Positions 813-37,056 of a stretch of 39,791 nucleotides of DNA are shown piece after piece. The translations under genes were made by a program, and so were the position numbers. Origin of the DNA: a virus; the IMG/VR virus record IMGVR_UViG_3300007516_000048, positions 1 through 39,791 of that record; one strand, written 5' to 3'. The notes beneath the pieces are model-generated. The model saw only the letters and a program-made list of their open reading frames with translations. It ran no database searches and was not told the DNA's origin. Every line of letters starts with the position of its first letter. Positions within the stretch are counted from its first letter, which is position 1.

Positions 813-895
813 TGAAGCGAAGCGGAATTAGACTTCGCAAGGCGCTCAGTAGGGGGCGTTCTCGCAACAAGCGAACAGCGAATGGAAGCGTGTAA
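812..895 (+). CDS. Arg-rich 27-residue micro-ORF between TerS and TerL
   Basis: This is a 27-codon reading frame starting MKRSGIRLRKALS. It contains ten Lys/Arg and no Asp/Glu. Its ATG overlaps the TerS stop by one base (TGATG) and has a good Shine-Dalgarno, GGGAGG at 798-803 with 8 nt spacing. It ends 14 nt inside the TerL gene, whose own ATG at 882 has no clear ribosome-binding site. The frame may therefore serve as a coupling ORF that delivers ribosomes to TerL, or encode a small basic nucleic-acid-binding peptide. Too short to assign by homology; function unknown. Confidence 0.45.
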   Translation: MKRSGIRLRKALSRGRSRNKRTANGSV

Positions 896-2363
896 CCCAG
901 AGGCTATACTCGCCGCGCAAGCTGCGTTACGGATGGAGCGGAAACTACTCGCAGCCGCTAAGGCTGACCCTGTCCGCTTCTACTCCCCTCACGCTAAGCA
1001 AGACGACTTCCACCGCGCCGGCGGCCACAGTCGGAGAGCGGTGTTTGCTGGTAACCGCTTCGGGAAGAGCCATCTCGGTGCAGCTGAAGACGGAGCGTGG
1101 CTGCGTGGTGAACGGGCGTGGTATCCTCAGTCAGACGCGGCGAGGCGGCTGGGGATACCACAACGCCCGGTGAAGGGGCTAGTGATCTGTGCGGACTGGG
1201 ACAAAGTCGGCGAGATTTGGACAGAAGAAGGCGGCGTTAAGCCGGGCAAGATCTGGAGTATGCTCCCTCGCGGGTTCGTCAAGAAGAAGACACGCTCCTC
1301 GAACGGAGTTATAGACTTCCTACTATGCAAGAACGAGTCGTTGCTCCGCTTTGAGACAGTCAAGTCGTTCCAGAACAACCCACTAGGCACGGAAAGCAGT
1401 GATTGGGACTTCATCCACGTCGACGAGCCATGCCCCCAGAAGATGTTCACTGCTGCTGCCCGCGGCCTCGTAGACCGCAAGGGCTTCGCATGGTTCACCC
1501 TCACGGCGATCAGTGAGCCGTGGATCGTAGACTACTTCATCGACAACGACTTCTGGTACGAGTACGGCTCCATTTACGACAACCCGCATAACACTCTCGA
1601 AGCTATCAAGGAGTTCGAGCTGTTGCTAGACGACGACGAGAAGGAGTGCCGTCTCTACGGTAAGCCGCTTCATATGGCAGGGCTGGTGTACAAGCAGTTC
1701 ACTACAGACTTCCACGTGCTGAAGACGTTACCGCTCGGTTGGACAGCGTACGACCGCCCTCCTCGCGACTACACGATCTACGTCCGTATAGACACACACC
1801 CACAGGTCCCGCACGCGGTGCTCTTCTGCGCTGTCAGCCCGACTGGCCACCGCTTCTACTATGACGAGATATTCGCTCAGCTCTCGATTGTCGCGCTAAG
1901 CGGGGAGATCAAGAAGCGCACGGTAGGCTACCAGATGGGCACCATCAAGGTGGAGCCTGCTGCCTGGGTGCTTGACCCTATCTCTAAGGTGACTAGCGTG
2001 GCTCGTGAGTTTGCCGCGGCCGGCTTGCCGGTGCTACGTAGCAGTAAAGACCTCTCTGGCGGGATTGTTAAGGTGAAGCAGTCGTTAGGAGAGTTGCCGC
2101 CCCGGTTGCACTTCTCCCCGCTGATGAAGCGCACGTTGTGGGAGATCAAACGCTACTGCTGGGACCCGAAAGGAACGAACAAACCGATAGACACCGAAGA
2201 CCACATGATGGAGAATCTCTACCGGATGGAGATTGACAATCCACGGTGGTGTGAGCCTGGCACGGAGACCGAGGAGTGGTGGCCTGACCCGATGCCCTTG
2301 GCATCGTTGTCTACAGCCGACTTTGACGACAGCCTGGACCTTGAGCTAAATCTAACGTTATGA
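882..2363 (+). CDS. terL: Terminase large subunit (packaging ATPase/nuclease)
   Basis: TerL is the motor that translocates DNA into the prohead and cuts it. The 493-residue length is normal for the family. The Walker A loop is VFAGNRFGKSHLGA (about residues 54-67), in the classic terminase form GNRxGKS/T. A Walker B-like strand with the acidic pair follows at WDFIHVDEP (about residues 178-186). The C-terminal half has a candidate RNase H-like nuclease start, YTIYVRIDTHPQ (about residues 302-313), with the expected Asp. The start at 882 lacks a strong ribosome-binding site and overlaps the upstream micro-ORF. The stop overlaps the next gene as ATGA. High confidence on function; the assignment of individual nuclease residues is by eye. 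Confidence 0.93.
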   Translation: MEACNPEAILAAQAALRMERKLLAAAKADPVRFYSPHAKQDDFHRAGGHSRRAVFAGNRFGKSHLGAAEDGAWLRGERAWYPQSDAARRLGIPQRPVKGLVICADWDKVGEIWTEEGGVKPGKIWSMLPRGFVKKKTRSSNGVIDFLLCKNESLLRFETVKSFQNNPLGTESSDWDFIHVDEPCPQKMFTAAARGLVDRKGFAWFTLTAISEPWIVDYFIDNDFWYEYGSIYDNPHNTLEAIKEFELLLDDDEKECRLYGKPLHMAGLVYKQFTTDFHVLKTLPLGWTAYDRPPRDYTIYVRIDTHPQVPHAVLFCAVSPTGHRFYYDEIFAQLSIVALSGEIKKRTVGYQMGTIKVEPAAWVLDPISKVTSVAREFAAAGLPVLRSSKDLSGGIVKVKQSLGELPPRLHFSPLMKRTLWEIKRYCWDPKGTNKPIDTEDHMMENLYRMEIDNPRWCEPGTETEEWWPDPMPLASLSTADFDDSLDLELNLTL

Positions 2364-2587
2364 GTGGAGAAGCAACGATCTACAAAGAGAGCGGTGGGAA
2401 GTATGCACGTGTTACACAGCAGAGTCATGCCGATCAGGCAGTAGCTGTCTACGTCACACAGTCCATCTCTAACCCACCTACTCAAGCGGAGGTACAGGCT
2501 GTTGACGCCGGCCTAGTGACAGCCGTCCGGCTGTCCAACCAGCTACGAAGTGATCTTATCGCACTTGGCCTAATTCTGGGTTCTTAG
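2360..2587 (+). CDS. Hypothetical protein, 75 residues
   Basis: A small soluble protein whose ATG overlaps the TerL stop by four bases (ATGA), so it is likely translationally coupled to packaging. It has a polar N-terminus (MSGEATIYKESGGKYARVTQ) and a helical C-terminal half with VRLSNQLRSDLIALGLILGS. No catalytic motif, signal peptide or membrane span is visible. Position between terminase and virion genes hints at a structural or packaging accessory role, but I do not recognise the family. Confidence 0.7.
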   Translation: MSGEATIYKESGGKYARVTQQSHADQAVAVYVTQSISNPPTQAEVQAVDAGLVTAVRLSNQLRSDLIALGLILGS

Positions 2588-2611
2588 TGCGTAGCACAGG
2601 AGAGTATTATT

Positions 2612-3313
2612 ATGAACTCCAATGTAGAGTACTACCGGCCATTCGGCCAACAAGCAACAGGGACGGTTACGTTTAACGCGGTGCCGGTCACGGATGCAAC
2701 CGTTACGATAGGCGGTGTCGCTTTCATTTTCAACGATGACTTCGCCAGCGCGGCGAACTTCACAGGCAGCAACGCAGCTTTATGCGCCCGCTCGCTATGC
2801 GAGTGCATCAACAGCACGCCGATTAAGTACCTCAAGACGCATAACAACCTGAACGGGTTCAGGACGTTCTTCGCGATGTACTACGGTAACGTGGTGGTCG
2901 TGGTGGCGACTGAGCCAGGCACGGGTGGCAACGTGATTGGTGTGGTGGTTAGCGGAGACACGAACGGCGCGATAGCAGTGAGTGGGGCTGTGCTTGCTGG
3001 TGGAACCAGCTTGGCTGTGCCGGTCGTGATGAGCGCAGGCGCCACAGCGTTCAGCATCGAGACGGGAACATTCACTGCTAGCGGAGTAGCGAAGGTGTTC
3101 AGCGCTACCTCGAAGCTGTACTCGAAGTTGCACATCCTCTCAACAGCCGGTAATGTAGACGCTACGCTAGGCGACTCTGTCGCGCAGCCGCTACCGATCG
3201 TCGCAGGCGTATGGTACACTTTCGACCCACCGCCTCTCGGCGTGGGTGATATGAACGACCTTTATGTTAATGGCACTAACGCCGAGGTATTCTCCTGGCT
3301 TCGCTGGTACTGA
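2612..3313 (+). CDS. Virion structural protein with beta-rich tandem domain
   Basis: A 233-residue, Gly/Ala/Val/Thr-rich beta-strand protein. Near the N-terminus the pattern ATGTVTFNAVPVTDATVTIGG followed by VAFIF is a motif common to phage appendage and capsid-decoration proteins, where the phrase 'A-T-G-x-V-T-F ... G-D-T-V-T-I-x-G-V-x-F-x-F' recurs. The C-terminus (FSATSKLYSKLHILSTAG and PLPIVAGVWYTFDPPPLGVG) resembles a capsid or fibre jelly-roll domain. It has a good ribosome-binding site (AGGAG at about 2599-2603). No signal peptide. Likely a decoration or fibre component; exact role unknown. Confidence 0.75.
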   Translation: MNSNVEYYRPFGQQATGTVTFNAVPVTDATVTIGGVAFIFNDDFASAANFTGSNAALCARSLCECINSTPIKYLKTHNNLNGFRTFFAMYYGNVVVVVATEPGTGGNVIGVVVSGDTNGAIAVSGAVLAGGTSLAVPVVMSAGATAFSIETGTFTASGVAKVFSATSKLYSKLHILSTAGNVDATLGDSVAQPLPIVAGVWYTFDPPPLGVGDMNDLYVNGTNAEVFSWLRWY

Positions 3314-3317
3314 TCTT

Positions 3318-3746
3318 ATGAAGAAGTTACTATGTTTGCTTGGCTTGTGCGCTAGCACAGCCGCTCAGCCGTTCTGGACTCCAACTCCATTCATGTCGGA
3401 CTGGCCGCGACAGCCTGACGCCGCTACGGCGCGGACGAAGTTGGGTGTTGTCGCTGCGCCGATGCTGACAAGGGCCGCGTTAAGCGGGACGAAGACATTG
3501 ACCGTTGGCACGGACAATCCCGTGCAGGTCGCATCCTCGGTCGCGAGCACGCCGATCTTCGACCTGCAAGACACGTCGGCACGGAACGGGGACCTGTTCC
3601 ATGTCGTGAACCAGAGCGCCACGGCATCGCTGGCTGTAAACGCCAACGGCGGCCTGCTGAAGACCGTGCCGGCAGATAGCTGGGCGCGATTCCAATGGGA
3701 TACCGGAACAACCGACTGGGTGCTGATCAGCTACGGGAGTCTATAA
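3318..3746 (+). CDS. Small beta-rich protein with N-terminal signal peptide
   Basis: From the ATG at 3318 the 142-residue product begins MKKLLCLLGLCASTAAQPFW, a convincing Sec-type signal peptide with cleavage near residue 16-17. What follows contains DAATARTKLGVVA, a phrase typical of phage tail-fibre proteins, then a beta-rich C-terminal half (DLQDTSARNGDLFHVVNQSA). A longer frame opens at 3264 but would mask the signal and overlap the previous gene. A signal peptide is not normal on a virion fibre, which assembles in the cytoplasm, so the protein may be exported to the host surface during infection, or the hydrophobic N-terminus may be an anchor. The CTAG-free island starts inside this gene, just after the signal-peptide codons. 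Confidence 0.7.
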   Translation: MKKLLCLLGLCASTAAQPFWTPTPFMSDWPRQPDAATARTKLGVVAAPMLTRAALSGTKTLTVGTDNPVQVASSVASTPIFDLQDTSARNGDLFHVVNQSATASLAVNANGGLLKTVPADSWARFQWDTGTTDWVLISYGSL

Positions 3747-3747
3747 C

Positions 3748-4212
3748 ATGAGCGCAACATCTTACAACATTCGAGGGCTGTCGGTCACGGCACTGCCAGC
3801 ATCGCCGTTGGTTGATACCATCTACCGACTCACCGCCGCGGACAACACGGCGAGAGCGGCTCCGGGCGAGTATGTCGATAATGGGGATGGCTGGGTCTGC
3901 AACAATTACAGGTTGATGTACTATTATGGCAACCTGACCGGCTCCGTGTCCCTCTCGTTGATCCCCGGCGCGGCCTACTTTGGCACGGTCATCGCCGGGG
4001 CCATCACGACGCTCGTGACCACGTTGACGGCGAAAGGGATTGCCGGGTTGCAGTTGATGAATGCATCCCTCTTTGCGGTCGCTCAGCCCTCGATGGCAGG
4101 GCGGACACCGAAGGCGCTGACGGACCTCGCGCCGCTGGCAACGGCTCTGGTCCAGATCAACATCGAGGACAATGGGATGTATCTGTACACCTCGTGCGCG
4201 GAGGCAGTCTGA
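3748..4212 (+). CDS. Hypothetical protein, 154 residues
   Basis: The protein begins MSATSYNIRGLSVTALPASPLVDTIYRL and has a mid-region YVDNGDGWVCNNYRLMYYYGNL. It then has a hydrophobic Ala/Thr/Gly-rich stretch (AAYFGTVIAGAITTLVTTLTA). The N-terminal pattern resembles short modules in phage fibre proteins that describe a value, time or position (LPASPLVDTIYRLTAADN), but no catalytic motif is seen. It sits one base after the preceding stop with a possible ribosome-binding site CGGGAG, and its stop overlaps the LRR-protein start by one base (TGATG). Part of the putative acquired island. Function unknown. Confidence 0.7.
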   Translation: MSATSYNIRGLSVTALPASPLVDTIYRLTAADNTARAAPGEYVDNGDGWVCNNYRLMYYYGNLTGSVSLSLIPGAAYFGTVIAGAITTLVTTLTAKGIAGLQLMNASLFAVAQPSMAGRTPKALTDLAPLATALVQINIEDNGMYLYTSCAEAV

Positions 4213-5144
4213 TGAGCACTCGCAGACAACAGGCGGGGATGATGGGGGGCGCACCGCTGCCTTACGTGGTGCAACCTGCGTCATCGACGGAGATCGACAT
4301 CAACCTCAAGGGGCCTGGCGCTCTGACGATTTACTGGGGTGACGGGCTCAGTAACAGCTACACGCTGAACCTGAGCACGAACACGACCGTCTCTCACACG
4401 TACGCGAGCGGAGCAGAGCGCGATGTGAAATTCGACGGGGCAATCACGTCGTGGACCAGCACGGGCGATACGTTCTACGGTGGGGATGTTGCGAATCTTC
4501 CAAGGGGGATTACGTATCTGAACGTCTGGGGCTACAACACTCTGTCGGGAGCCGTGTCCGGGTTGCCCACTGGGTTGACGTATCTGTACGTCATTGGCTC
4601 GAACACCCTGTCGGGTGACGTGTCCGGGTTGCCCACTGGGTTGACGGTTCTGGTCGTCTATGGCACGAACACTCTGTCAGGTGCCGTTAGTGGATTGCCT
4701 GCTGGGTTGACGTATCTGCTCGTCATTGGCTCCAACACCGTGTCGGGTGATGTTAGCGGACTGCCCACTGGAATAACGTATCTGGTCGTCTGGGGCTCGA
4801 ACACCCTGTCAGGCGAACTATCTGGCATCCCAAGCGTCGCCAATTACGTCTCGCTCGGCAGTGCCAGCAGCACGATGGCGCTCGCGACGGCAGCATTGCC
4901 GACCGGGCTCTGTTATTTCCTCATCAACCAACCACTGCCCCAAGCGTCGTTGGACAACATCCTGGCCGCGTTCTGGGCAAACCGAGACGCAGCCAAGCCG
5001 CGGGCAGAGCGCACCATCGACATCGACTACGCTGGGAGTGGAACTCCATCCGCTGCCGGGCTGGTGGACAAGACCAACTTACAGGCTTACCGGTCGCCGA
5101 ATAGCGATCCAACGAAACCCTTCTGGACGGTCAACACATTGTAA
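4212..5144 (+). CDS. PKD-like / leucine-rich-repeat surface protein
   Basis: A 310-residue protein started at the ATG at 4212, which has a strong ribosome-binding site (GGAGG, 4200-4204) and overlaps the previous stop. Residues about 20-80 look like a PKD/Ig-like beta-sandwich (GALTIYWGDG ... TVSHTYASG). Residues about 95-204 are five tandem 22-residue units of the form LPxGLTYLxVxGxNTLSGxVSG, matching bacterial leucine-rich repeats with Leu/Ile/Val at the inward positions. A degenerate sixth unit (GIPSVANYVSLGS) follows, then a mixed C-terminal region (PQASLDNILAAFWANRD). It has no clear signal peptide. LRR solenoids usually bind proteins or glycans, so an adhesin-like or receptor-binding role is inferred. 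It lies in the CTAG-free island and may be host-derived. Confidence 0.8.
   Translation: MSTRRQQAGMMGGAPLPYVVQPASSTEIDINLKGPGALTIYWGDGLSNSYTLNLSTNTTVSHTYASGAERDVKFDGAITSWTSTGDTFYGGDVANLPRGITYLNVWGYNTLSGAVSGLPTGLTYLYVIGSNTLSGDVSGLPTGLTVLVVYGTNTLSGAVSGLPAGLTYLLVIGSNTVSGDVSGLPTGITYLVVWGSNTLSGELSGIPSVANYVSLGSASSTMALATAALPTGLCYFLINQPLPQASLDNILAAFWANRDAAKPRAERTIDIDYAGSGTPSAAGLVDKTNLQAYRSPNSDPTKPFWTVNTL
4494..4823 (+). repeat. Five tandem 66-bp repeats encoding LRR units
   Basis: Units begin at 4494, 4560, 4626, 4692 and 4758, each 66 bp (22 codons). The junction between units 2 and 3 shows near-identical DNA (TCCGGGTTGCCCACTGGG at both 4557 and 4623), while other units diverge at many codons. The in-frame unit length means copy number can change without breaking the gene. 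It is a coding repeat, not a CRISPR array, because there are no unique spacers. Confidence 0.9.
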
Positions 5145-5146
5145 CT

Positions 5147-5683
5147 ATGATCTGGAACCACAACGAAACCCCGCCCACTCGCGTGACCAGCAGCACGATC
5201 ACGCTGGCCGGCGAGACAGTCGTCATCAACCACAAGGCCACGGACGCGGTGCTGAACGGCATCAAGCTGTACCGCCAAGGCGTGGACGAACCAATACAGA
5301 CGGGCCACCGCATCGTCAGCGCCGACAGGGTGATCAGCCCGGACGGCAAGAGCGTGCTGGTGAACTTGGTCACGGAACTGATGCCCGTGGTTGAGCCGGT
5401 GCCTGCGGAGTTCCGGGATGGAATTGAAACGCCCAGCATCATCTTCCCGGCATCGGTCACTCACGACTACGAGCAGACGATCATAGACGGGGTGGTCACG
5501 GTCATCCAGATCAGCGCCAGCCCGCGCAAGGACACGGGCGAGAGGGACGCGTTGAAGGCGGTGAAGAAGATCGAGTTGGACGCCACGAAGGCCGGGCTGC
5601 CGTCGCTGCTGGCCAAGGTGAACGACAAAGACGTCAGAGCCGTGCTGGAGATCATTCTGAGGCAAATGAACCTAATTACGTAA
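5147..5683 (+). CDS. Hypothetical protein, 178 residues
   Basis: A soluble protein lying two bases after the LRR gene and one base before the PEP-CTERM gene. It is beta-rich in the first two thirds (SSTITLAGETVVINHKATDA; GKSVLVNLVTELMPVVEPV) and helical at the end (DALKAVKKIELDATKAGLPS). No signal peptide, membrane span or catalytic motif is visible. The tail of the sequence looks like a chaperone or connector segment. Its placement between two putative surface proteins suggests a partner or fibre-tip role, which is inference only. Confidence 0.65.
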   Translation: MIWNHNETPPTRVTSSTITLAGETVVINHKATDAVLNGIKLYRQGVDEPIQTGHRIVSADRVISPDGKSVLVNLVTELMPVVEPVPAEFRDGIETPSIIFPASVTHDYEQTIIDGVVTVIQISASPRKDTGERDALKAVKKIELDATKAGLPSLLAKVNDKDVRAVLEIILRQMNLIT

Positions 5684-5684
5684 C

Positions 5685-6236
5685 ATGAAGAAAATACTAC
5701 TCGCAATCACACTGTTCGCGGCATTCGCAATGCAGGCCGCGACTCTCAACATCAACGGCCGACTCCACACGGAGACCGGCACCCTGGCCGTTCCCATCAC
5801 GGTCAGCTACGACGCGGCGCAGGCGGTGCCGTGGCAAGAACCAGGCTGGTCGCTGATCGCTCCAGTGACGCTCACAATGACGATATTCGGCGTCACCTAC
5901 GATCAGACCGATGATGGGGATTATCCGAATTGGCCTGGTCTGGTCCTTTACAAAGGTGCTCCGGATCAATTGGATTTCGTAGTACTTCAGCCTCGTCTGT
6001 CAATCTGGCGACTCGGAGCCGTTGGCCCACTGGTGGAGACACCGGATGGCTGGTCGGTGCAGGTATTTGTTGACGCAAGCGCGAGTGACTTTGGCTACGG
6101 GCTACCCGGCAAACCTGTCCGGTTGAGTATGTTTCAACCTGGCGTGCCGGAACCAGGCGCGTGGGCGATGGTGGTAGGGCTTGGATTGCTTGGGCTGGTG
6201 ATCGGACGGCGAAGGCGGCGGGCTTTCGGAGTGTAG
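5685..6236 (+). CDS. Secreted protein with PEP-CTERM sorting signal
   Basis: A 183-residue protein with both ends of an exosortase substrate. The N-terminus MKKILLAITLFAAFAMQA is a Sec signal peptide. The C-terminus has VPEP at residues 154-157, a hydrophobic span to residue 174, then five consecutive Arg (175-179) and four more residues. That three-part layout is the PEP-CTERM signal that host exosortase (EpsH/XrtA families) recognises. The body is beta-rich (TETGTLAVPITVSYDAAQAV; LTMTIFGVTYDQTDDGD), as in many PEP-CTERM surface proteins. I see no exosortase here, so processing would depend on the host. The gene lies at the end of the CTAG-free island, supporting capture from a bacterial genome. 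A function in coating or masking the infected cell is inference. Confidence 0.85.
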   Translation: MKKILLAITLFAAFAMQAATLNINGRLHTETGTLAVPITVSYDAAQAVPWQEPGWSLIAPVTLTMTIFGVTYDQTDDGDYPNWPGLVLYKGAPDQLDFVVLQPRLSIWRLGAVGPLVETPDGWSVQVFVDASASDFGYGLPGKPVRLSMFQPGVPEPGAWAMVVGLGLLGLVIGRRRRRAFGV

Positions 6237-6271
6237 GAAATAACTCGGTGTAACCTTGGGATAGGAACAAT

Positions 6272-6481
6272 ATGGCACCAACTAACGAGGAAAGAGTAGC
6301 AGTGTTAGAAGATCACCGCAAAACTGTCAACGGAAGTCTTGCTAGTATAGACGCAAGACTTGCGTCACACACAAAACAAATACACACGCTTGACCAGAAG
6401 CAGGCATATTTCTCCGGCATGTTGGCAGTGCTGGTGTTCGTGTCTCCGTTCATCCATGCGTGGATAATGACAAAGCCATGA
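6272..6481 (+). CDS. Small membrane protein, holin/XhlA-like
   Basis: A 69-residue protein with a charged, helical N-terminal half (EERVAVLEDHRKTVNGSLAS, then IDARLASHTKQIHTLDQK) and one C-terminal membrane span (about residues 46-65). Coiled-coil plus C-terminal anchor is the layout of XhlA-type haemolysin/holin-accessory proteins encoded in many phage lysis cassettes. A ribosome-binding site (ATAGGAA) precedes the ATG. The stop overlaps the next gene as ATGA. It could instead be another membrane-anchored accessory; holin activity is not proven by sequence. Confidence 0.65.
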   Translation: MAPTNEERVAVLEDHRKTVNGSLASIDARLASHTKQIHTLDQKQAYFSGMLAVLVFVSPFIHAWIMTKP

Positions 6482-6663
6482 ACGAAAGCCACTTCGTCGG
6501 AGTTAGCATCCGTGCGTGGATTGCATTAGTCGTCGTGTGCTCCTTCTGTGTTGTCTGCGTATACGCAAAGCAAATCGAAATGCTGGAACGAGCGACGATA
6601 CTTGTGCTCGGTTTCTACTTCGGCCAGAAACAGGTGGGTAATCATGAAAAACCTAGCGTGTAG
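6478..6663 (+). CDS. Small membrane protein, candidate holin
   Basis: A 61-residue product from the ATG at 6478, coupled to the previous gene by an ATGA overlap. It has one strong membrane span (AWIALVVVCSFCVVCVYA, residues 13-30) and a second, weaker hydrophobic stretch (ATILVLGFYFG, 39-49), followed by a charged tail (HEKPSV). Size, hydrophobicity and position beside an anchored coiled-coil protein and a lipoprotein fit a holin or pinholin. I see no endolysin nearby, so the lysis assignment stays tentative. Confidence 0.6.
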   Translation: MNESHFVGVSIRAWIALVVVCSFCVVCVYAKQIEMLERATILVLGFYFGQKQVGNHEKPSV

Positions 6664-6985
6664 CATACTGTTGGTGGCGGTGCTAGCCGCCTGCCAAGCA
6701 ACGCCTAAGCGGAAAGCCTTCGTTACGTTGACGCAGGTGGTTGACGTTGTGCAGAGCGGACTCATCGCGTACGACAACTATGTCGCCATGACAGGTGACG
6801 GGATGGCGGTACGGATGGAGTTGAAAGCTGCCTACATCCGTTATCAGATTGTGATGCTGTCGGCGGTCAGCGTCGCTGACCGGGACTGGGAAGTTGTCCC
6901 GGCGACCGGGAAGGTGCTGAACGCTGCGGAAGCTGTGTTGCAGATTGTGCGGGAGTTTGTGGAGGTACCGGCATGGAAGAACTAG
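6644..6985 (+). CDS. Lipoprotein, candidate spanin-like lysis protein
   Basis: The ATG at 6644 gives a 113-residue protein beginning MKNLACSILLVAVLAACQAT. This is a signal peptide ending in a lipobox (LAAC, Cys at residue 17), so the mature protein should be lipid-anchored, probably in the outer membrane since Gln rather than Asp follows the Cys. The mature part is mostly helical (TLTQVVDVVQSGLIAYDNYV; AAEAVLQIVREFVEVPA). It starts 20 bases inside the preceding membrane-protein gene. Position suggests an o-spanin role, but the Pro-rich character of Rz1 is missing, so a surface or superinfection-related lipoprotein is equally possible. Confidence 0.65.
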   Translation: MKNLACSILLVAVLAACQATPKRKAFVTLTQVVDVVQSGLIAYDNYVAMTGDGMAVRMELKAAYIRYQIVMLSAVSVADRDWEVVPATGKVLNAAEAVLQIVREFVEVPAWKN

Positions 6986-7146
6986 CTGTAGTCTTCGCCA
7001 CGCTGGCGATCAAGCACGGTGTGCCGTATGCGGTACGTGCGATTGACCGTTTAATGGAGGCGGACAACCCTACGAAAGACGAATGGGCTGCGTTGCGGAA
7101 GCGAGTAGCTACACCTTTCGATGAATTTGTGAAAGATAGAGTATGA
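6973..7146 (+). CDS. Hypothetical small protein, 57 residues
   Basis: A short gene beginning MEELAVVFATLAIKHGVPYA and ending ATPFDEFVKDRV. A strong GGAGG (6961-6965) lies seven bases before the ATG. It overlaps the lipoprotein gene by 13 bases and the glycosyltransferase gene by four bases (ATGA), so it fits the coupled chain exactly. The sequence looks soluble and helical, with no Cys or signal. The segment LAIKHGVPYAVRAIDRL resembles short helical proteins near holins in other phages, but I cannot name a family. Confidence 0.7.
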   Translation: MEELAVVFATLAIKHGVPYAVRAIDRLMEADNPTKDEWAALRKRVATPFDEFVKDRV

Positions 7147-8159
7147 GGTATAATGTTTTTGGTGCTTACGAACAGAGCACGTCTTTCGGCTTGACGAGTA
7201 AGTTCGTCTGCGAGGCGTTGTTGAAAGCTGGGCATGACGTGGTGGCGGTGGTGCAGGATAATGGCGGAGTAGCTGACAGGCTACTGCACCCAGCCTGTCC
7301 AAAGTGGTTGAAGACGAAGGCTGGACAGCCGCAGCCGAAAGCGAAGAACGTGTGCGTGTTCCCGATTGGGTGGCCGTACTATAAAACGCACGCGAAGGGC
7401 TCGACAGTCGTGACAGTGTGGGAGACGGACAAACTGCATCCGAGAGATGTCAAGTGGCTGAATGAAGCGAAGAAAGTCATCACGTTCACCGCATGGGGCA
7501 AGCGTGTAATGGAGCAGAGCGGAGTAAGTGTACCGATAGCTATCATGCCGTTGGGTGTAGATAAGCGGTACGTCCTCTCGAAAGAGATGCCAGTCGGGAA
7601 GACGTTCCTCACGGCGGGCCGGTGCTGGAGTGGAAATAGGCGGAAGGGTGTTGGCAACGTTATAGCAGCGTTTCTCGGGCACGCGGAGCGGCATGCTGAT
7701 ACACGACTAGTCATTAAAGCAGCCGAATGTGACCCGCTGGAGTTCTCTCACCCCCGAGTGCAGATCATCAAGCAACAGGTGCCGGTGGAGGAGATGATGC
7801 GCTTGTACGCACATAGCTTCTGCTACGTCTCTGGTGCGTTGAGTGAGGGCTGGGGATGGCACCAGCACGAGGCTATGATGTGCGGTAGGCCGGTGATTGG
7901 AACGACGTATGGCGGGATGGGAGAATTCTTCAAAGGTAATGAGCATGGGTATGCTGTTCGATATGGTATGGAGAAGGCTGACGATGAGTACCACGCTAGT
8001 GGCCGCTGGACCGTCCCTTCGCTAGACGACATGGTCGCTGCAATGAACAAGGCAGCAGCTGACCCGTACGACGCCATGATGCGTGGACTGAAAGCCCACA
8101 TGGCGGTGCAGCACATGACTGCTGATCTGATGTACCGTAATTTCGCCAAACTGATATGA
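7143..8159 (+). CDS. Glycosyltransferase, GT4/GT-B type
   Basis: A 338-residue GT-B enzyme expected to move a sugar from a nucleotide-sugar to an acceptor with retention of configuration. The N-terminal domain starts with a Rossmann-like strand and a Gly-rich turn (RYNVFGAYEQSTSFG). The C-terminal donor domain carries the EX7E signature, Glu235 and Glu243, within SEGWGWHQHEAMMCGRPVIGT, which is diagnostic of family GT4. A nucleotide-contact segment AGRCWSGNRRKGV precedes it. Slightly short for GT4 but both domains look whole. Coupled on both sides by ATGA overlaps. The acceptor could be host O-antigen or a virion protein; DNA is less likely because no modified-base pathway is seen nearby. Confidence 0.88.
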   Translation: MRYNVFGAYEQSTSFGLTSKFVCEALLKAGHDVVAVVQDNGGVADRLLHPACPKWLKTKAGQPQPKAKNVCVFPIGWPYYKTHAKGSTVVTVWETDKLHPRDVKWLNEAKKVITFTAWGKRVMEQSGVSVPIAIMPLGVDKRYVLSKEMPVGKTFLTAGRCWSGNRRKGVGNVIAAFLGHAERHADTRLVIKAAECDPLEFSHPRVQIIKQQVPVEEMMRLYAHSFCYVSGALSEGWGWHQHEAMMCGRPVIGTTYGGMGEFFKGNEHGYAVRYGMEKADDEYHASGRWTVPSLDDMVAAMNKAAADPYDAMMRGLKAHMAVQHMTADLMYRNFAKLI

Positions 8160-8362
8160 CTACCGAGGGCCTCCTTTCGTTACACAACGCCCGATTCCGC
8201 CTCTTCGGTGCAGCCACCTTGCAAGGGCAAGGTGACGTCGCGTTCATCGACAGGCTGGTCAGTGACACGCAACCAGAGTTTGTCGCGGAGGGTTTTGAGG
8301 AGTTTATGTGGCGGGAGGCAGAGTTGTTGCACAGTGACTGGCGCGCGTGGAGGAAGCTATGA
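8156..8362 (+). CDS. Hypothetical protein, 68 residues
   Basis: A small acidic protein in the glycan cassette, with ATGA overlaps to the GT4 gene before it and the GT2 gene after it. The N-terminal phrase NARFRLFGAATLQGQGD and the C-terminal helix EFVAEGFEEFMWREAELLHS are visible, with several Trp near the end (WREAELLHSDWRAWRKL). No catalytic motif or membrane span. It could be an accessory subunit for one of the flanking transferases. Function unknown. Confidence 0.65.
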   Translation: MTTEGLLSLHNARFRLFGAATLQGQGDVAFIDRLVSDTQPEFVAEGFEEFMWREAELLHSDWRAWRKL

Positions 8363-8994
8363 AAAGTGTGTCTAGCTATATGCTGGTGCTGAACGAGGCG
8401 ACGTTCGTCCGACATGCGATACACAGCGTGTTGCGGTATGTGGATGAGTTGCTAGTCATCGACGGTGGGAGTAGTGATTGCACACGCGATATCGTCACGG
8501 AGATAGCTAGTATCGATAGACGAGTCCGGCTAGAGGTGTGGCCGCAGAGTGGTGTGCCGTACACTGCAGCTTGGCACGAGCCGACTGTGCGCAACACCGC
8601 GATGACTAAGTTAGCCCATGACTGGGTGCTGACGCTTGACGCAGATGAGGTGTTGGAGGCAGACGAGAACTTGTTTAGGTCGCTGGACGAGCCTGCTGTG
8701 CTGACACGGCTGAATCTTGTTAGTTACAGCCGATATATCCACCGTATGGGTGTACAGTTGTGGTACCCAGACTCGCAGCTTCGCTTCTACAACCGGCGTA
8801 ACGCTGTCTACCCTCCACAGGCGTTACATAGCATTGCTACGCAAGCGAATGGACAGCCAATGCCGTTCGTCACCGTAGACGCTACGCTGTGGCACTACAA
8901 CGGGATTGTTAAGCCACGGAGGCAGTGGCTAGCGGACAATCCGACAGCGTTCACCAGCCTTCCCTGTCAGCGGAGAGCCCCCGTCACGTTATGA
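8359..8994 (+). CDS. Glycosyltransferase, GT2/GT-A type
   Basis: The ATG at 8359 has a strong ribosome-binding site (GGAGGAAG) and gives a 211-residue GT-A protein. Family GT2 hallmarks are present in order: the N-terminal strand and LNE turn (YMLVLNEATF, residues 7-16), the nucleotide-binding DGGSSDCT (35-42), and the DXD metal site LDADE (93-97). The C-terminal portion (RFYNRRNAVYPPQALHSIAT; LWHYNGI) matches the small GT2 enzymes that act on LPS core or glycans. It overlaps both neighbours by four bases. Likely works with the upstream GT4 enzyme to assemble a short glycan; the substrate is unknown. Confidence 0.88.
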   Translation: MKSVSSYMLVLNEATFVRHAIHSVLRYVDELLVIDGGSSDCTRDIVTEIASIDRRVRLEVWPQSGVPYTAAWHEPTVRNTAMTKLAHDWVLTLDADEVLEADENLFRSLDEPAVLTRLNLVSYSRYIHRMGVQLWYPDSQLRFYNRRNAVYPPQALHSIATQANGQPMPFVTVDATLWHYNGIVKPRRQWLADNPTAFTSLPCQRRAPVTL

Positions 8995-9476
8995 TTACAG
9001 CTTCTCCCTTACCTTGGTTATCGTTCGAAGCGGTTAGCGTGCTATTGTCTACTAGGTGCGAAGGCGATACACTGTTTGAGTACGGCAGCGGCTACGGCAC
9101 TGACTTCTGGCGGATGTTCTATACGGTAACTAGTGTGGATCATAGCCCAGATTTCGGCAAGTACGCAGATGCGTTGTATCGCGACGAAGTGGCGTATGTC
9201 AACGCGCTGAATATGCAGTATGATGTAGTCATCTGTGACGGGCACGATCCATGGCGGCCACAGTGTGCTCTGCGCGCTGCTCAGTTCGCGAAGAAGATAG
9301 TCATTATTGACGACACAGAACGAGAGTCGTACGTTCCGTGGATCAACGCCGCAATGAGTGATGAGTGGAGTCGGCACGATTTTCACGGTATGAAACGTTT
9401 CGACTCTCGGCAAGCTGGCAACCTGATACCAACACAGACAACGTTGTTTGCACGGAAGGGAGTGGTGCAGTTGTGA
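8991..9476 (+). CDS. SAM-dependent methyltransferase-like protein
   Basis: A 161-residue protein from the ATG at 8991 (ATGA overlap with the GT2 gene). A class I methyltransferase motif I is visible as LFEYGSGYGTDF (residues 28-39), followed by a strand ending in an acidic residue (VTSVDHSPDF), then a motif IV-like strand YDVVICDGHDPW and a strand KKIVIIDDTE. The fold is short but complete through five strands. It has no DNA-methyltransferase DPPY motif, so a sugar, lipid or protein substrate is more likely. It belongs to the coupled glycan cassette, and the natural partner is a glycan made by the neighbouring transferases. Confidence 0.75.
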   Translation: MITASPLPWLSFEAVSVLLSTRCEGDTLFEYGSGYGTDFWRMFYTVTSVDHSPDFGKYADALYRDEVAYVNALNMQYDVVICDGHDPWRPQCALRAAQFAKKIVIIDDTERESYVPWINAAMSDEWSRHDFHGMKRFDSRQAGNLIPTQTTLFARKGVVQL

Positions 9477-9508
9477 AGACTTTCGTGATAGCACCTATCA
9501 TGTTATGA
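9473..9508 (+). CDS. 11-codon linker ORF bridging two methyltransferase genes
   Basis: An 11-codon frame, GTG start, reading MKTFVIAPIML. It overlaps the upstream stop as GTGA and the downstream ATG at 9505 as ATGA, so ribosomes could pass through it between the flanking genes. A GGGAG about ten bases upstream may start it, whereas the 9505 ATG has no Shine-Dalgarno. Its first 18 bases are the same as the start of the gene at 10038, so it is probably the stranded 5' end of that gene left by an insertion, now acting as a coupling leader. Confidence 0.4.
   Translation: MKTFVIAPIML
9474..9491 (+). repeat. 18-bp direct repeat, left copy
   Basis: TGAAGACTTTCGTGATAG occurs here and again at 10039-10056. 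The copies are 565 bp apart and bracket the methyltransferase gene at 9505-10041. Here it spans the stop codon of the preceding gene and the start of the linker ORF. Confidence 0.9.
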
Positions 9509-10041
9509 CGTTTACGCAAAACTTCTTCGCCGGTATGCGGCCTGATATGGAGGCTGTAGTACCGAAGACCGCAAAGACTGTGCTAGAGGTTGGCGTGTTC
9601 GAGGGTCGGTCTACGCTGTTCTTCTGTGAGTGGTGTGCAGAGCTAGAGTTGTTGGTGGCTGTGGACCACTTTGAGGGTGGTGACGGACTTGACGGTAGTG
9701 GGTTGTTTGAACGGTTTACGGAGAACACGCTGGAGTGCTCGCATAAGATTCAGACACTAGTCGGCTCGTCATGGCAAGAGCTTCCGAAACTGCAAGCGAA
9801 TATGTTCGATGTGGTGTGTGTGGATGGTTCGCACGCCACCGCAACCGTGATGCACGATGCTGTGCAGGCGTACCGCGTGTGTAGGATTGGCGGTGTGCTA
9901 GTGTTCGACGACTATACGTGGGGGCATGAGGCCATGAATATACCGAAGATAGCCATTGATGCGTTTGAACAGACGTTCGTTATGTTGGTCGAACATATCC
10001 CAACCACTCCTAGAGTGAGAGCTTTTCGTAAAGTAGCATGA
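9505..10041 (+). CDS. Class I methyltransferase (Methyltransf_24-like)
   Basis: A 178-residue protein from the ATG at 9505. Motif I is VLEVGVFEGRST (residues 26-37), the acidic end of strand 2 is VAVDHFEGGDG (51-61), and the later strands read FDVVCVDGSH (101-110) and GGVLVFDDYTWG (129-140). The D-G-S-H and F-D-D-Y pair with the E-G-R-S turn are characteristic of the Methyltransf_24/cephalosporin-hydroxylase-like group often found in glycan clusters, where they methylate sugars. A metal-binding role of Asp/His is likely. The gene is bracketed by an 18-bp direct repeat, so it may be a later insertion into the cassette. Confidence 0.85.
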   Translation: MTFTQNFFAGMRPDMEAVVPKTAKTVLEVGVFEGRSTLFFCEWCAELELLVAVDHFEGGDGLDGSGLFERFTENTLECSHKIQTLVGSSWQELPKLQANMFDVVCVDGSHATATVMHDAVQAYRVCRIGGVLVFDDYTWGHEAMNIPKIAIDAFEQTFVMLVEHIPTTPRVRAFRKVA

Positions 10042-10625
10042 AGACTTTCGTGATAGACGGAGTAGAGCTACCGTACTACTTTCGAACTCGCATTAACAGC
10101 GAGCGGACAGTGGAAGTTGCGTTGGCGAATTGGTTCGTCGACAAGTGTCCAGAGTTCGTGGAGGTGGGTGCTGTGTTGCCGGCGTATGGAGTAGTAGGCC
10201 ACATGTGCTACGACTTATGCGAGAAGCGAGCCGGCGTGTTGAACGTGGATGCAGAGACGGTAGACTACACCGGCCTAAACGTGCTCAACATTTCTACGAT
10301 AGAGCATATGGGTAAAGCAGAGTACGGTAACACGGTGCTAGACGCGGACAAGCCGATTAGAGTGTTCTGCAAAACGTTGAGTGAGGCGAAGAACTACCTG
10401 GTTACATTTCCTGCCGGGCATGACAAGCAGCTAGATCGCTTTGTTGACAACAGACACAAGGCAAGAGTGCTGTGCTGGAGCGAAGGCAATCTGTGGTGTG
10501 AGACAGACGAACTGCTGACTAGCTTTGGCTACGGTCAGCGTGCCCCGTTCGCAGACGCAATCGCGGTTGTTAGCAACCTCTTTAATGATTTGCACACCTC
10601 ACAAAGCTATGCTAATGTGGCATAG
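10038..10625 (+). CDS. Methyltransferase-like protein
   Basis: A 195-residue protein, coupled to the previous gene by ATGA. The phrase FVEVGAVLPAYG (residues 40-51) corresponds to a methyltransferase motif I, though the Gly-rich loop is reduced. LNVDAETVDYTGLNVLNIST (68-87) ends strands 2 and 4, and STIEHMGKAEYG (86-97) matches the S-T-I/L-E-H-V/I-G signature found in class I SAM-dependent methyltransferases. The C-terminal half has fewer recognisable motifs. The weakened motif I could mean relaxed or lost SAM binding. It is the last gene before the portal, and the 18-bp repeat overlaps its start. Confidence 0.7.
   Translation: MKTFVIDGVELPYYFRTRINSERTVEVALANWFVDKCPEFVEVGAVLPAYGVVGHMCYDLCEKRAGVLNVDAETVDYTGLNVLNISTIEHMGKAEYGNTVLDADKPIRVFCKTLSEAKNYLVTFPAGHDKQLDRFVDNRHKARVLCWSEGNLWCETDELLTSFGYGQRAPFADAIAVVSNLFNDLHTSQSYANVA
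10039..10056 (+). repeat. 18-bp direct repeat, right copy
   Basis: Second copy of TGAAGACTTTCGTGATAG, spanning the preceding stop codon and the first codons (MKTFVI) of this methyltransferase-like gene. Deletion between the copies would join the gene ending at 9476 directly to this one with an intact four-base overlap. Confidence 0.9.
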
Positions 10626-10649: not shown

Positions 10650-12578
10650 ATGGCGATTGAAGTATTCATAGCGGACTTAGAAAAGCCACGGCCGTCCGGT
10701 TGGCATGACGACTTGCTAGACTGGTGTAAGGAGAAAGTCAGCGAGAGTCGTGCTGTGATGTCGGAACGGTACGAGGAGTGGGACGCTTCCCACGCCGCTT
10801 TTCGTGCACGAGTAGACAAGACTCGTGACGACCTCGCGGCAGAGAAACGGAAAGAGCCTACCCGACAGGCCATCCCGCTGACGTTTGCGCAAGTGGAGAC
10901 CTTCGTCTCGTTCTTGATGACACTGTATCTTCAGCGGGAGAGGTTGTTCGAGCTGGTGCCGACCGGCGAGGAAGACGCCGATGCGGCTGCGCTCGCGGAG
11001 GCGACCATCGCGAGGGATCTGCGTGACAACGTGTTCGAGATGAAGCTGTACAAGTTTCTGCTGAACGTCGCGAAGTATGGCATCGGTGTGATGAAGGTCA
11101 CGTGGGAGGAGAAGTTTGAGGAAGTCGAGCGGGTGGAAGAGGCCGACCCGGTGAGTATTGCTGGACAGGAGATCGGGACCGCGGAGCCAGTGACCGTTGT
11201 TGAGCGCATCAAGGTCCGTGCTGGAAACAAGATCGAGACGATCTCGCCGTATAGCTTCTTCCCTGACCCCAACTTCCCACTGAGTCAGATGCAGGAGGGT
11301 GAGTTTGTGGCGAGCGAGATCGTTATGACGCGGCAGTCGCTTATCGACATGGAGTTGCGGGATGAAGTGGTGGGTGTGGAGCATATTGAGCGGCTGCCGA
11401 AGACGGTTGATTATGGGGACCGGAGAGTGCTACGGCTACAGAAGAATGAGGACATTCAGCGTACGCCGGACAAGGAAGGCACTGGCCCGGTGATCATCAC
11501 TGAGGTGCAAGCTACGCTAATCCCCAGCAAGTTTCTAATCGAGAAGGAGCCGCTTGGCACGCAAGACTACCCGGTCAAGTACAAGATTTGGTATGCGAAC
11601 GACAACCGCATCATCAGTATCGAGCCGTTGGCTCAGCCGCATGGACAGTATAGCTATGTGGTGGGCGAGTTCACGCCAGATGATGAGGAGATGGTGTCCA
11701 GCTCGCTGAGCGATAACATCAAGCCGTTGCAAGACACCGCTTCATGGCTGATCTCTAGTCATGTGGCCAACGTTCGCAAGGTGATCAACAACCAGTTGAT
11801 TGTGGACGGGAGTGCTATCGAGGTTAGCGATTTGCTGGAGCGGAAGAACGTAGTGCGGCTGCGGAATAGCGCACAAGGCACGGACATCAGTCGGGCGGTA
11901 AAGCAGTTGGAAGTGCGTGATGTCACTGGCGCGCATATGGGCGATGCGAAACAGATGTACGATCTAGCGCAGATCGTTTCTGGTATTAGCGACAACGCTA
12001 TGGGGCAGTTTAGTCCTGGCCGGCGAAGTGCGCTAGAGGCAAGGAATGTCAATGCCGGTGCGGCTATGCGCCTGAAGATGCACGGGATGCTGCTCTTCCG
12101 GGGTGCGCTAGAGCCTATGGCTCGTATGATGTTGAAGAACCTCAAGCAGTGGCTTGATGTGGAGACGTTCGTCGAGGTGCGGGGAGAGTTGAGTGATCCT
12201 AGTGAGTATGCTCGGTTCAAGACAGTCACGGGCCGGTCGCTCATGGGCAGTTATGACTTTGAGGTTTTCGATGGCACGCTGCCGTCGGAGCGTGGTGCGC
12301 AAGCACAGGCGCTGCAAGAGTTCTTGCAGTTCCTTGGAGCGAACCCGGAGAGTATTGCTTTCCTGGGTTACGATCCTCGCGAGATCATGAAAGAATGGTT
12401 AATGCTACGCGGCATACGGAACCCGGAGCGGTTCAAACTTGACGCGTTGCGGCAACAAGAACTACAAGCCCAAATGCAACAGTATGGCATTGGACCCGGA
12501 AGTGCTGGCGGAAATCGAGGAGTTGGGAATGGACCCGCAGGAGGCGCGTCAAGAGGCACAGGCCGTCCTACGGTCTAG
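10650..12578 (+). CDS. Portal protein (head-tail connector)
   Basis: A 642-residue protein that should form the dodecameric DNA gate at the capsid vertex. Size, the early helical region (WCKEKVSESRAVMSERYEEW), the segment IPLTFAQVETFVSFLMTLYL and the later stem-like region (LQDTASWLISSHVANVRKVI) agree with large podovirus portals. The pattern NVFEMKLYKFLLNVAKYGIG then VMKVTWEEK is a recurrent portal motif. The C-terminal tail is Gln/Gly-rich and low-complexity (QAQMQQYGIGPGSAGGNRGV). It precedes scaffold and capsid genes, which fixes the assignment. The 3' end overlaps the following gene by 95 bases in another frame. Confidence 0.9.
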   Translation: MAIEVFIADLEKPRPSGWHDDLLDWCKEKVSESRAVMSERYEEWDASHAAFRARVDKTRDDLAAEKRKEPTRQAIPLTFAQVETFVSFLMTLYLQRERLFELVPTGEEDADAAALAEATIARDLRDNVFEMKLYKFLLNVAKYGIGVMKVTWEEKFEEVERVEEADPVSIAGQEIGTAEPVTVVERIKVRAGNKIETISPYSFFPDPNFPLSQMQEGEFVASEIVMTRQSLIDMELRDEVVGVEHIERLPKTVDYGDRRVLRLQKNEDIQRTPDKEGTGPVIITEVQATLIPSKFLIEKEPLGTQDYPVKYKIWYANDNRIISIEPLAQPHGQYSYVVGEFTPDDEEMVSSSLSDNIKPLQDTASWLISSHVANVRKVINNQLIVDGSAIEVSDLLERKNVVRLRNSAQGTDISRAVKQLEVRDVTGAHMGDAKQMYDLAQIVSGISDNAMGQFSPGRRSALEARNVNAGAAMRLKMHGMLLFRGALEPMARMMLKNLKQWLDVETFVEVRGELSDPSEYARFKTVTGRSLMGSYDFEVFDGTLPSERGAQAQALQEFLQFLGANPESIAFLGYDPREIMKEWLMLRGIRNPERFKLDALRQQELQAQMQQYGIGPGSAGGNRGVGNGPAGGASRGTGRPTV

Positions 12579-13513: not shown

Positions 13514-14905
13514 ATGGCCATCTTTGGTCTATCGTCTACTGCCGATTACGAGGCGTATCGGAGTAAGAACTACCGTCGGTCTGTTCAGTACAGCTACCCG
13601 AAGGGTAAAGCACCACTTATGGGACTATTGAGTCTCATGAGTGAGGAGTACACAAACGATCCTGAGTTCAGCCACTGGGAGTACCGGTACACGTTACCGA
13701 AGACCCTCACGGCGAGTCAGGGTTCGTCTAAGGGTCCTATCAAGTCAGCGGCTGACGCGGATGCTGGTGATCCGATTACGCTGGTGGCTGATACGGAGTA
13801 CATCTTCTGCGTCGACGACGCCACGATCTTCCGCGAGGGGAAGGTGGTTGAGATCTCGCTACTCGACACTAGTGCTGCTACGCACCGTGTCACTGGCGTG
13901 GTCACGGCCATCACGGACCGTAGTGGGACTCCGAACAAGATCAAGGTGCGTGTGCTGGATGGGTATACAGCCCTCACTAATGGTATCACGAACGAAAACG
14001 TCGACCGGGCTTTCCGGGCCATCGGCTCCTCGTTCGCACAGGGCCGTAGTAACGTGACTGGTGAGTATGTGAAGCTTCCTACGAAGTTCACTAACCTCAC
14101 ACAGATCTTCCGGACACCGTTCAGCCTGCCTCGCACAGCGATCAAGGCACCGCTGGACTATGACAAGAGCGGACCGTACAAGCACAAAGCCAAGATCGCC
14201 GCACTCGACCATATGGTCGACATGGAGATGGCGTTGATGTTCGGCAAGAAGGATAGCTACACCAAGCCGATCAGCTCTGGTGACGAGGCGGTGGCCACGA
14301 CCGGCGAGGGTATGATTCAGACGCTCACTGGCGGGTTGCTCTACTACCTGGAACAGTGGGAGATGGCCGCGAGTCCGTACCGGGGTGCAACCTCCACAGC
14401 GATCACTGCTGACAGTGATGACAACAAGCGTATCATCGAGAACACCGGTGGGACGATTGACGAGGACACGTACGACGGCTACGTCGAACGGGCCTTCCGG
14501 AAGACGAACAACGTCTCGAATGAGAAGCTGGTGTTGTGCGGGAATGGTGCCTTGCTGGCGCTCAACCAGATGTGGAAGTCGAAGACCAACTTGAACAGCA
14601 AGTTGCCGATGACTGAAACCTATGGGATGGACATCGTGTCCAGTGTCACGCCGTTCGGCACGCTCCACTACAAAACTCACCCTCTATTCAACGAGGATGA
14701 TGACTGGCGCTTCAACATGCTGATCGTCGATATAAATAACATCAAGTATCGGCCGTTGTCGGATAGCGACACCAAGCTGTTGACGCAGCGTCAGGCCAAC
14801 GACGCCGACCACCGGAAAGATGAGTATCTGACCGAGGCCGGGTTTGAGGTGTGGTTCCCTGAATCACACATGTTGATCAAAAACGTTCAGTCCTACACCC
14901 CTTAG
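13514..14905 (+). CDS. Major capsid protein (SU10-like)
   Basis: A 463-residue protein that should form the HK97-fold capsid shell. Supporting features are its length, position after the scaffold, and characteristic segments: HWEYRYTLPKT near the N-terminus, the A-domain-like TQIFRTPFSLPRTA and MVDMEMALMFGKKD, the later LVLCGNGALLALNQMW, and the C-terminal KTHPLFNEDDDWRFNMLIVD. These resemble the SU10 major-capsid family (PF17236, formerly DUF5309) found in podoviruses. No cleavage site is obvious. It is expected to be the most abundant virion protein; a terminator about 540 bases downstream closes its transcription unit. Confidence 0.88.
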   Translation: MAIFGLSSTADYEAYRSKNYRRSVQYSYPKGKAPLMGLLSLMSEEYTNDPEFSHWEYRYTLPKTLTASQGSSKGPIKSAADADAGDPITLVADTEYIFCVDDATIFREGKVVEISLLDTSAATHRVTGVVTAITDRSGTPNKIKVRVLDGYTALTNGITNENVDRAFRAIGSSFAQGRSNVTGEYVKLPTKFTNLTQIFRTPFSLPRTAIKAPLDYDKSGPYKHKAKIAALDHMVDMEMALMFGKKDSYTKPISSGDEAVATTGEGMIQTLTGGLLYYLEQWEMAASPYRGATSTAITADSDDNKRIIENTGGTIDEDTYDGYVERAFRKTNNVSNEKLVLCGNGALLALNQMWKSKTNLNSKLPMTETYGMDIVSSVTPFGTLHYKTHPLFNEDDDWRFNMLIVDINNIKYRPLSDSDTKLLTQRQANDADHRKDEYLTEAGFEVWFPESHMLIKNVQSYTP

Positions 14906-31420: not shown

Positions 31421-31575
31421 TTTTTCCCAGCATCTAGCTTAACAAGGAAGTCTTTTGTAGTTTGATGTAATAGACTAAGGAGGATGAATTGTTCTGTGTC
31501 GTTTGCCGTACATGAATCCGAGTCGTCAAATTCAAACTCGTGATCGCAATGAGGGCAGTGTGTGTGGTGGATCAT
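31402..31575 (-). CDS. 57-residue CxxC protein
   Basis: A short gene reading MIHHTHCPHCDHEFEFDDSD with a probable zinc-binding CPHC knuckle (Cys7, Cys10) in a His-rich N-terminus, a single later Cys at position 22, and a basic C-terminus (AGKKWKDGD). The ATG overlaps the polymerase stop as ATGA, so it belongs to the operon. Only two close Cys are present, so a metal site may need His ligands. Possibly an adapter to the polymerase or the DUF3987 protein; function unknown. Confidence 0.7.
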   Translation of the reverse strand: MIHHTHCPHCDHEFEFDDSDSCTANDTEQFILLSLLHQTTKDFLVKLDAGKKWKDGD

Positions 31576-35356: not shown

Positions 35357-35556
35357 GATAATCTTCTCTTGTCTTCACTGAGAAGGAAGTAAACACGGGT
35401 AACCGGGTACGCGCCTCTACTCACTGCGTGTCTGCGTTTCATAGCTGTTTCGTGAATAGCAAGCGCTTTCGCGTCTGCTTCTGCAAGACTGTCAAACAGT
35501 CCGTGTTGTATGTGTATACTGTTATAACTTCTGAGGACTAGATACTGACTGTTCAT
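35353..35556 (-). CDS. Hypothetical protein, 67 residues
   Basis: A small protein from the ATG at 35556, coupled to the methyltransferase gene by ATGA. The sequence (MNSQYLVLRSYNSIHIQHGL then FDSLAEADAKALAIHETAMK) suggests a small alpha/beta fold with a basic end (SEDKRRLS). A longer frame from 35634 would overlap the methyltransferase gene and has an unlikely Arg/His-rich extension. No known family recognised. Confidence 0.65.
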   Translation of the reverse strand: MNSQYLVLRSYNSIHIQHGLFDSLAEADAKALAIHETAMKRRHAVSRGAYPVTRVYFLLSEDKRRLS

Positions 35557-36869: not shown

Positions 36870-37056
36870 GTTGCCGGAGGATTGCTGTGTGCTTTTTAAC
36901 TTTAGCGATGAATAGGAGTGTTTCGTCTGCAAGCTGTTCTCGACAAGCGTCGAGATCGGCGTCGTTATCGTCGAAGGTAGCGGTAAGTTCTATACGTATG
37001 TGCTGGAAAGGCGCCACCTCGACGTTGGTGCGGACAGTGGCGGTGGTGATTCTCAT
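36850..37056 (-). CDS. Hypothetical small protein, 68 residues
   Basis: From the ATG at 37056 the product reads MRITTATVRTNVEVAPFQHI and later FDDNDADLDACREQLADETL, a beta-then-helix layout. The start codon sits directly after the U-tract of the terminator at 37057-37085, with no Shine-Dalgarno between. A longer frame from 37074 would begin inside that hairpin and is less likely. It overlaps the methyltransferase gene by 20 bases. Function unknown. Confidence 0.65.
   Translation of the reverse strand: MRITTATVRTNVEVAPFQHIRIELTATFDDNDADLDACREQLADETLLFIAKVKKHTAILRQHDNEPF

Follow-up and report, generated by a model that had tools for sequence, protein, structure and literature searches.

A phage gene for a PEP-CTERM protein in a terminase-portal accessory slot, with other such genes in uncultivated phages

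A podovirus-like tailed phage, known from environmental sequence alone, carries between its terminase and portal genes a gene whose 183-residue product, P0001, ends in a PEP-CTERM sorting tail. Similar tails on other bodies occur in many unrelated uncultivated phages, which suggests that phages repeatedly borrow the export route of a host exosortase. Proteins of this type are already known, but finding them encoded by phages, and in many unrelated forms, appears to be new.

Architecture of the encoded protein

The window, meaning the whole stretch of DNA analysed, corresponds to a single IMG/VR virus record (39,791 bases), in which we found neither end repeats of at least 25 nt nor tRNA genes. 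Positions 5685-6236 form an uninterrupted 183-aa frame whose translation starts MKKILLAITLFAAFAMQAATLN and ends GVPEPGAWAMVVGLGLLGLVIGRRRRRAFGV, with the following parts:

5685..6236, + strand: PEP-CTERM protein gene (P0001), 183 aa; translation, with PF07589 and TIGR02595 above cut-off
5685..5741, + strand: signal-peptide-like N-terminus, residues 1-19, MKKILLAITLFAAFAMQAA; hydropathy, inspection and a helix at 2-23 in a low-confidence AF2 model
6144..6155, + strand: VPEP motif, residues 154-157; translation and profile match
6156..6206, + strand: hydrophobic span, residues 158-174; translation, hydropathy and an AF2 helix at 157-180 (pLDDT about 80)
6207..6221, + strand: five-Arg cluster RRRRR, residues 175-179; translation

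A first-pass annotation had proposed a three-part tail of VPEP at 154-157, a hydrophobic span and five Arg, and translation places all three parts exactly there. PEP (155-157) is followed by the transmembrane span and then by a basic cluster no more than about ten residues from the C-terminus; the four residues after RRRRR are AFGV, and the protein ends at 183. Hydropathy analysis showed hydrophobic stretches at 1-21, after two lysines (K-K), and at 157-176, and a weaker one at 56-71. The signal peptide was called by inspection and hydropathy only, and the -3 and -1 residues of its putative cleavage site depart from the ideal AxA. The body has few basic residues and is high in Thr (8.2%), with Ser (5.2%) not raised; a sequence check found no Cys in either body or tail. 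Because the body is an orphan and its AF2 model (pLDDT 53) was too poor for a fold search, the activity of P0001 cannot be read from it.

Profile scores and chance control

To assess the tail we compared P0001 with curated models, two of which it passed by small margins in library scans: PF07589 gave 21.0 bits in the Pfam scan (cut-off 20.7, a margin of 0.3 bits) and TIGR02595 gave 17.6 bits (cut-off 16, a margin of 1.6 bits). These are the models that the first-pass annotation had named as a check on its reading, and both came out, narrowly, above their cut-offs. When the whole record was searched with the PF07589 profile, P0001 was the single match (24.7 bits, E 1.6e-6), and the same search matched 0 of 14 control genomes. 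A regular-expression tail pattern occurred once in the real window and never in 200 dinucleotide shuffles (62,379 ORFs). Among related models, the PEPxxWA-CTERM model NF035944 scored 19.1 bits against a threshold of 35, and the MHFG family model NF038119 matched nothing but the tail, at 15.3 bits (cut-off 100). The MYXO-CTERM model TIGR03901 scored 21.9 bits, above its cut-off of 20, yet P0001 lacks Cys. By the two curated models, the PEP-CTERM sorting tail of P0001 is real.

The gene within a phage operon

The gene lies among phage genes, with these features around it:

882..2363, + strand: terminase large subunit, left border of the accessory slot; phrog_2 at 2e-10, relatives at E 1e-103 to 1e-149
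2612..5683, + strand: tail-like or receptor-binding-like block; position and sequence character
6272-6481, + strand: small transmembrane gene with a polar N-terminal part and a transmembrane segment; sequence
6478-6663, + strand: small transmembrane gene; sequence
6644-6985, + strand: lipoprotein gene, lipobox LAAC; sequence
7143-8159, + strand: glycosyltransferase GT4; PF13692/PF00535/PF13578 set above cut-off
8347-8994, + strand: glycosyltransferase GT2; same set above cut-off
9505-10041, + strand: methyltransferase; same set above cut-off
10650..12578, + strand: portal protein (SU10/P22-like), right border of the slot; PF23899 and PF16510 above cut-off
13514..14905, + strand: major capsid protein; tblastn matches in five phage records bearing a major capsid or major head protein annotation

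The block at 2612..5683 stops one base short of the P0001 start codon, and the P0001 gene matches neighbouring phage genes in GC and codon use. The gene sits inside a phage operon and the record is viral, in agreement with the first-pass annotation, which had called it a phage gene. We call the block tail-like from its position and sequence character, because profile library scans gave no family match above cut-off for its genes. The three small membrane and lipoprotein genes at 6272..6985 are probably lysis-related, similar gene kinds being present in the relative L148.

Several other genes of the window are of interest in themselves. Within the tail-like block, the 3264-3746 gene (likely start ATG 3318) has a signal-peptide-like start, MKKLLCLLGLCASTAAQPFW, and exported-looking slot genes are also present in the relatives L149 and L152. 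The 4194-5144 gene holds a 66-nt direct repeat encoding about 22 aa (LPTGLTYLxVxGxNTLSGDVSG-like, resembling leucine-rich repeats), possibly a source of receptor-binding variation. The GT4, GT2 and methyltransferase genes at 7143-10041, between the lysis-like genes and the portal gene, form a cassette that could glycosylate the virion or a surface protein. PEP-CTERM proteins may be glycosylated, and a link between the cassette and glycosylation of the PEP-CTERM protein is possible. Further along, 31572-34178 encodes a Uracil-DNA glycosylase superfamily domain fused to a family A DNA polymerase, and 35553-36932 a ParB N-terminal domain fused to an N6/N4 DNA methylase-like domain (scores below cut-off); relatives have genes annotated ParB-like or DNA modification methylase.

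The operon position also bears on whether the C-terminal helix is a membrane anchor and nothing else, P0001 then being an inner-membrane phage protein, perhaps of lysis or of an exported tail-like set, that exosortase never cuts. Consistent with this are the small margins of the PEP-CTERM models, the small transmembrane and lipoprotein genes directly downstream and the signal-peptide-like starts of the ATG 3318 gene and of slot genes in L149 and L152, which may make exported slot proteins a habit of the group. However, anchoring does not require PEP at the membrane boundary, two curated models were passed with no match in shuffles, and unrelated phages have stronger-scoring tails. We consider a plain anchor unlikely, while giving it appreciable weight.

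An accessory slot between terminase and portal

We compared the window with 80 retrieved IMG/VR relatives. The capsid protein is 43-52% identical to those of the nearest of them and about 27-35% identical to those of isolate or named relatives, which are Vibrio, Roseobacter, Microcystis, Desulfofustis and Caulobacter phages. Conservation among the IMG/VR relatives extends to the terminase, portal, scaffold-like and capsid genes; among the genes at 2360-10625, GT4 alone has even a weak match there. Near relatives, too, have tail-like, small membrane and lipoprotein genes in this variable terminase-portal slot. The three nearest by terminase (L149, L152 and L156) have a slot of 4-5 kb with signal-peptide-like proteins and small transmembrane and unassigned genes, and L148, second by capsid identity, has small transmembrane, lipoprotein and methyltransferase-like genes directly upstream of the portal gene. 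In Desulfofustis phage LS06-2018-MD01 the terminase and portal genes are separated by hydrolase, endolysin and methyltransferase genes; in other relatives terminase and portal are adjacent. In a related phage, Roseobacter phage CRP-810, a gene at 11000-11755 annotated OmpA family protein, near a lysozyme gene, is another envelope-type gene among late genes.

The P0001 gene thus sits in a natural accessory slot. The same profile search that is positive for the window and for 11 of 11 matches of one PEP-CTERM DNA pattern (below) found no PEP-CTERM match in 50 capsid relatives, so the gene is dispensable for this phage group. That the slot genes have almost no homologues in relatives could also be read as bacterial DNA joined by misassembly, an outcome that the first-pass annotation had named as fatal to its proposal. 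Misassembly is very improbable, because the slots of L148, L149, L152 and L156 hold like gene kinds, adjoining genes nearly touch, P0001 following its neighbour after a one-base gap, and GC and codon use run on continuously from the neighbours.

PEP-CTERM genes in other phages

A search of IMG/VR with three narrow PEP-CTERM DNA patterns, which does not amount to a census, matched 11, at least 120 and 20 stretches; the PF07589 search was positive in all 11 matches of the first pattern. Among the matches listed, the tail was correctly placed in 155 ORFs on 143 loci, where 143 is best read as a maximum for true phage genes in the set found, some contigs being multi-copy (L079), from isolate genomes or possibly with host flanks. 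Bodies stripped of their tails, P0001 included, fell into 62 clusters among the matches listed; the largest had 52 members and P0001 stood alone. Some tails in unrelated phages scored higher than that of P0001.

A terminase was found in 15 of 49 pattern-matched records with the one model tried. In L028, L069 and L090 the PEP-CTERM gene lies between the terminase and major head protein genes. That of L067 comes after a gene for a helicase, and an ejection-protein gene is a few genes away. L245 and L233 are podoviruses whose portal is homologous to the window's by computed match; their PEP-CTERM gene lies about 4 kb upstream of a probable terminase, which was recognised by inspecting its position and the N-terminal pattern of its homologues, the window's own terminase giving no match in records of this type. 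MHFG-family proteins (NF038119) are encoded on four virus contigs (L012, L017, L026 and L100). The 52-member cluster (L028, L069, L090 and 49 other ORFs) is a large PEP-CTERM family of virus contigs, situated partly between terminase and capsid genes and apparently undescribed; its AF2 model (pLDDT 50) was not good enough to search for similar folds.

With PEP-CTERM genes recurring in many uncultivated phages from several lineages, P0001 is not a one-off. The first-pass annotation had known of no such standard phage gene type. For sequenced phages that judgement stands: about 50,700 records gave no tblastn match to P0001, two tails and four family members, the short tail queries having little power in that collection, and we found no description of phage-encoded PEP-CTERM proteins in the literature searched, whose coverage left out most subscription journals. 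For uncultivated phages it has to be relaxed, given recurrence in many of them. It may be that exosortase-addressed proteins, each kind with its own body, were gained independently by several phage lineages, which during infection display or release them through the exosortase of the host; we hold tentatively, as a proposal with nearly as much for it as against it, that this is an undescribed general strategy.

Dependence on a host exosortase

Exosortase (PF09721) was found in 0 of 50 records, comprising the window and 49 other virus records chosen by PEP-CTERM pattern matches, which agrees with the earlier statement that the window encodes none. As a positive control, the same family was found in six of seven bacterial genomes with the same PEPGAWAM tail, and a control search of E. 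coli found no exosortase; given the six of seven, the tail of P0001 is a fair pointer to a host with exosortase. Since the phage record encodes no exosortase, processing of P0001 would need that of the host. The tail resembles those of sphingomonads and Massilia, a resemblance that does not fix a host.

Origin of the protein body

No homologue of the P0001 body was found in phages, viral_contigs, genome_contigs or 369 sampled genomes of the class of a Massilia genome, where matches were confined to the tail. The body of the largest family was likewise absent from 385 sampled genomes of another class, again with tail-only matches. Because of these absences, and within the limit that the host group sampled may be the wrong one, both bodies look unlike plain recent host copies.

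These results bear on the view that the P0001 gene was recently taken from a host, as a passenger or as a gene retained for purposes outside infection. Its absence from 50 relatives is compatible with capture, as is the fast turnover of host PEP-CTERM proteins, most of which have no homology beyond the tail (PMC1569441). On the other hand, neither genome_contigs nor the 369 genomes of one class contain the body in a host copy, the gene resembles the adjoining phage genes in GC and codon use, a single base separates it from the preceding gene of the operon, and even the largest family (52 ORFs) has tail-only matches in the 385 genomes. Recent capture is therefore improbable.

Proposed role of P0001

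We think it somewhat probable that P0001 is the product of a late accessory gene that enters the host exosortase route and ends at the envelope or in exopolysaccharide (EPS). P0001 would be exported by Sec through its signal peptide and held in the inner membrane by the C-terminal helix with the arginines inside; host-made exosortase would recognise it at the PEP motif, and the infected cell would pass it on to its outer membrane or exopolysaccharide. Late expression, which we infer from the position beside probable lysis genes and in the structural operon, is presumed here along with host-exosortase processing and the final location. The tail, the position in a phage operon, the lack of a phage exosortase and the unrelated PEP-CTERM proteins of other phages argue for this route. 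Against it stand the narrow margins, the PEPxxWA model score below threshold, a host exosortase that is assumed, 0 of 50 relatives positive and the orphan body; a late gene would also leave little time for multi-step surface sorting.

As to what such a protein might do, our favoured guess is that P0001 alters the cell surface or EPS at a late stage of infection, which would keep sister phages or lysis debris from rebinding progeny or let progeny escape the matrix. The first-pass annotation had likewise suggested a possible block to superinfection or a change of the matrix. In Nostoc, experiments tie exosortase to the content and export of the exoproteome, EPS adherence and biofilm (PMC12188702), and in Aquincola the PEP-CTERM protein PepA moves EPS from the soluble to the bound fraction and rescues flocs (PMC9850573). 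Alternatively, abundant late P0001 might act as a decoy, keeping the exosortase of the host busy so that the cell loses its own PEP-CTERM proteins. For this the tail would suffice, with no defined body needed, and loss of host exosortase disturbs EPS adherence and biofilm (PMC12188702), but a body of about 130 residues would be superfluous; we rate a decoy as quite improbable.

Known exosortase substrates are bacterial proteins of the surface and matrix. If phages also make one, this would mean phage use of the exosortase route, would tie infection to EPS and floc structure and would offer an infection-linked handle on the function of sorting tails. The recurring virus families provide many test proteins at once.

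Comparison with known systems

Bacterial PEP-CTERM proteins have a signal peptide, the domain within ten residues of the C-terminus, no Cys, few basic residues in the body, high Thr and Ser, and a body without homology (Haft et al. 2006, PMC1569441). P0001 resembles these exosortase substrates (PF07589, TIGR02595) in its signal-peptide-like start, PEP, helix, C-terminal Arg cluster, lack of Cys, few basic residues, high Thr and orphan body, its Ser being ordinary. Unlike bacterial PEP-CTERM genes, more than 65% of which are solitary and preceded by over 200 nt of non-coding DNA (PMC1569441), the P0001 gene lies in a packed phage operon, and unlike the bacterial setting its record has no exosortase. 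P0001 shares with MYXO-CTERM substrates of myxosortase (TIGR03901, PMC11980579) a three-part tail that scores above cut-off, but it does not have the invariant Cys needed for processing by myxosortase (PMC11980579). The MHFG family (NF038119) is a named NCBIfam PEP-CTERM family on virus contigs, but its body differs from that of P0001.

Phages also have accessory products that act at the host envelope, among them T5 Llp, phi80 Cor and lambda Lom and Bor. These take lipoprotein or outer-membrane routes whereas P0001 has an exosortase tail, and the likeness is one of description only; by that analogy, our guess is that the purpose of P0001 may be comparable to that of T5 Llp or phi80 Cor.
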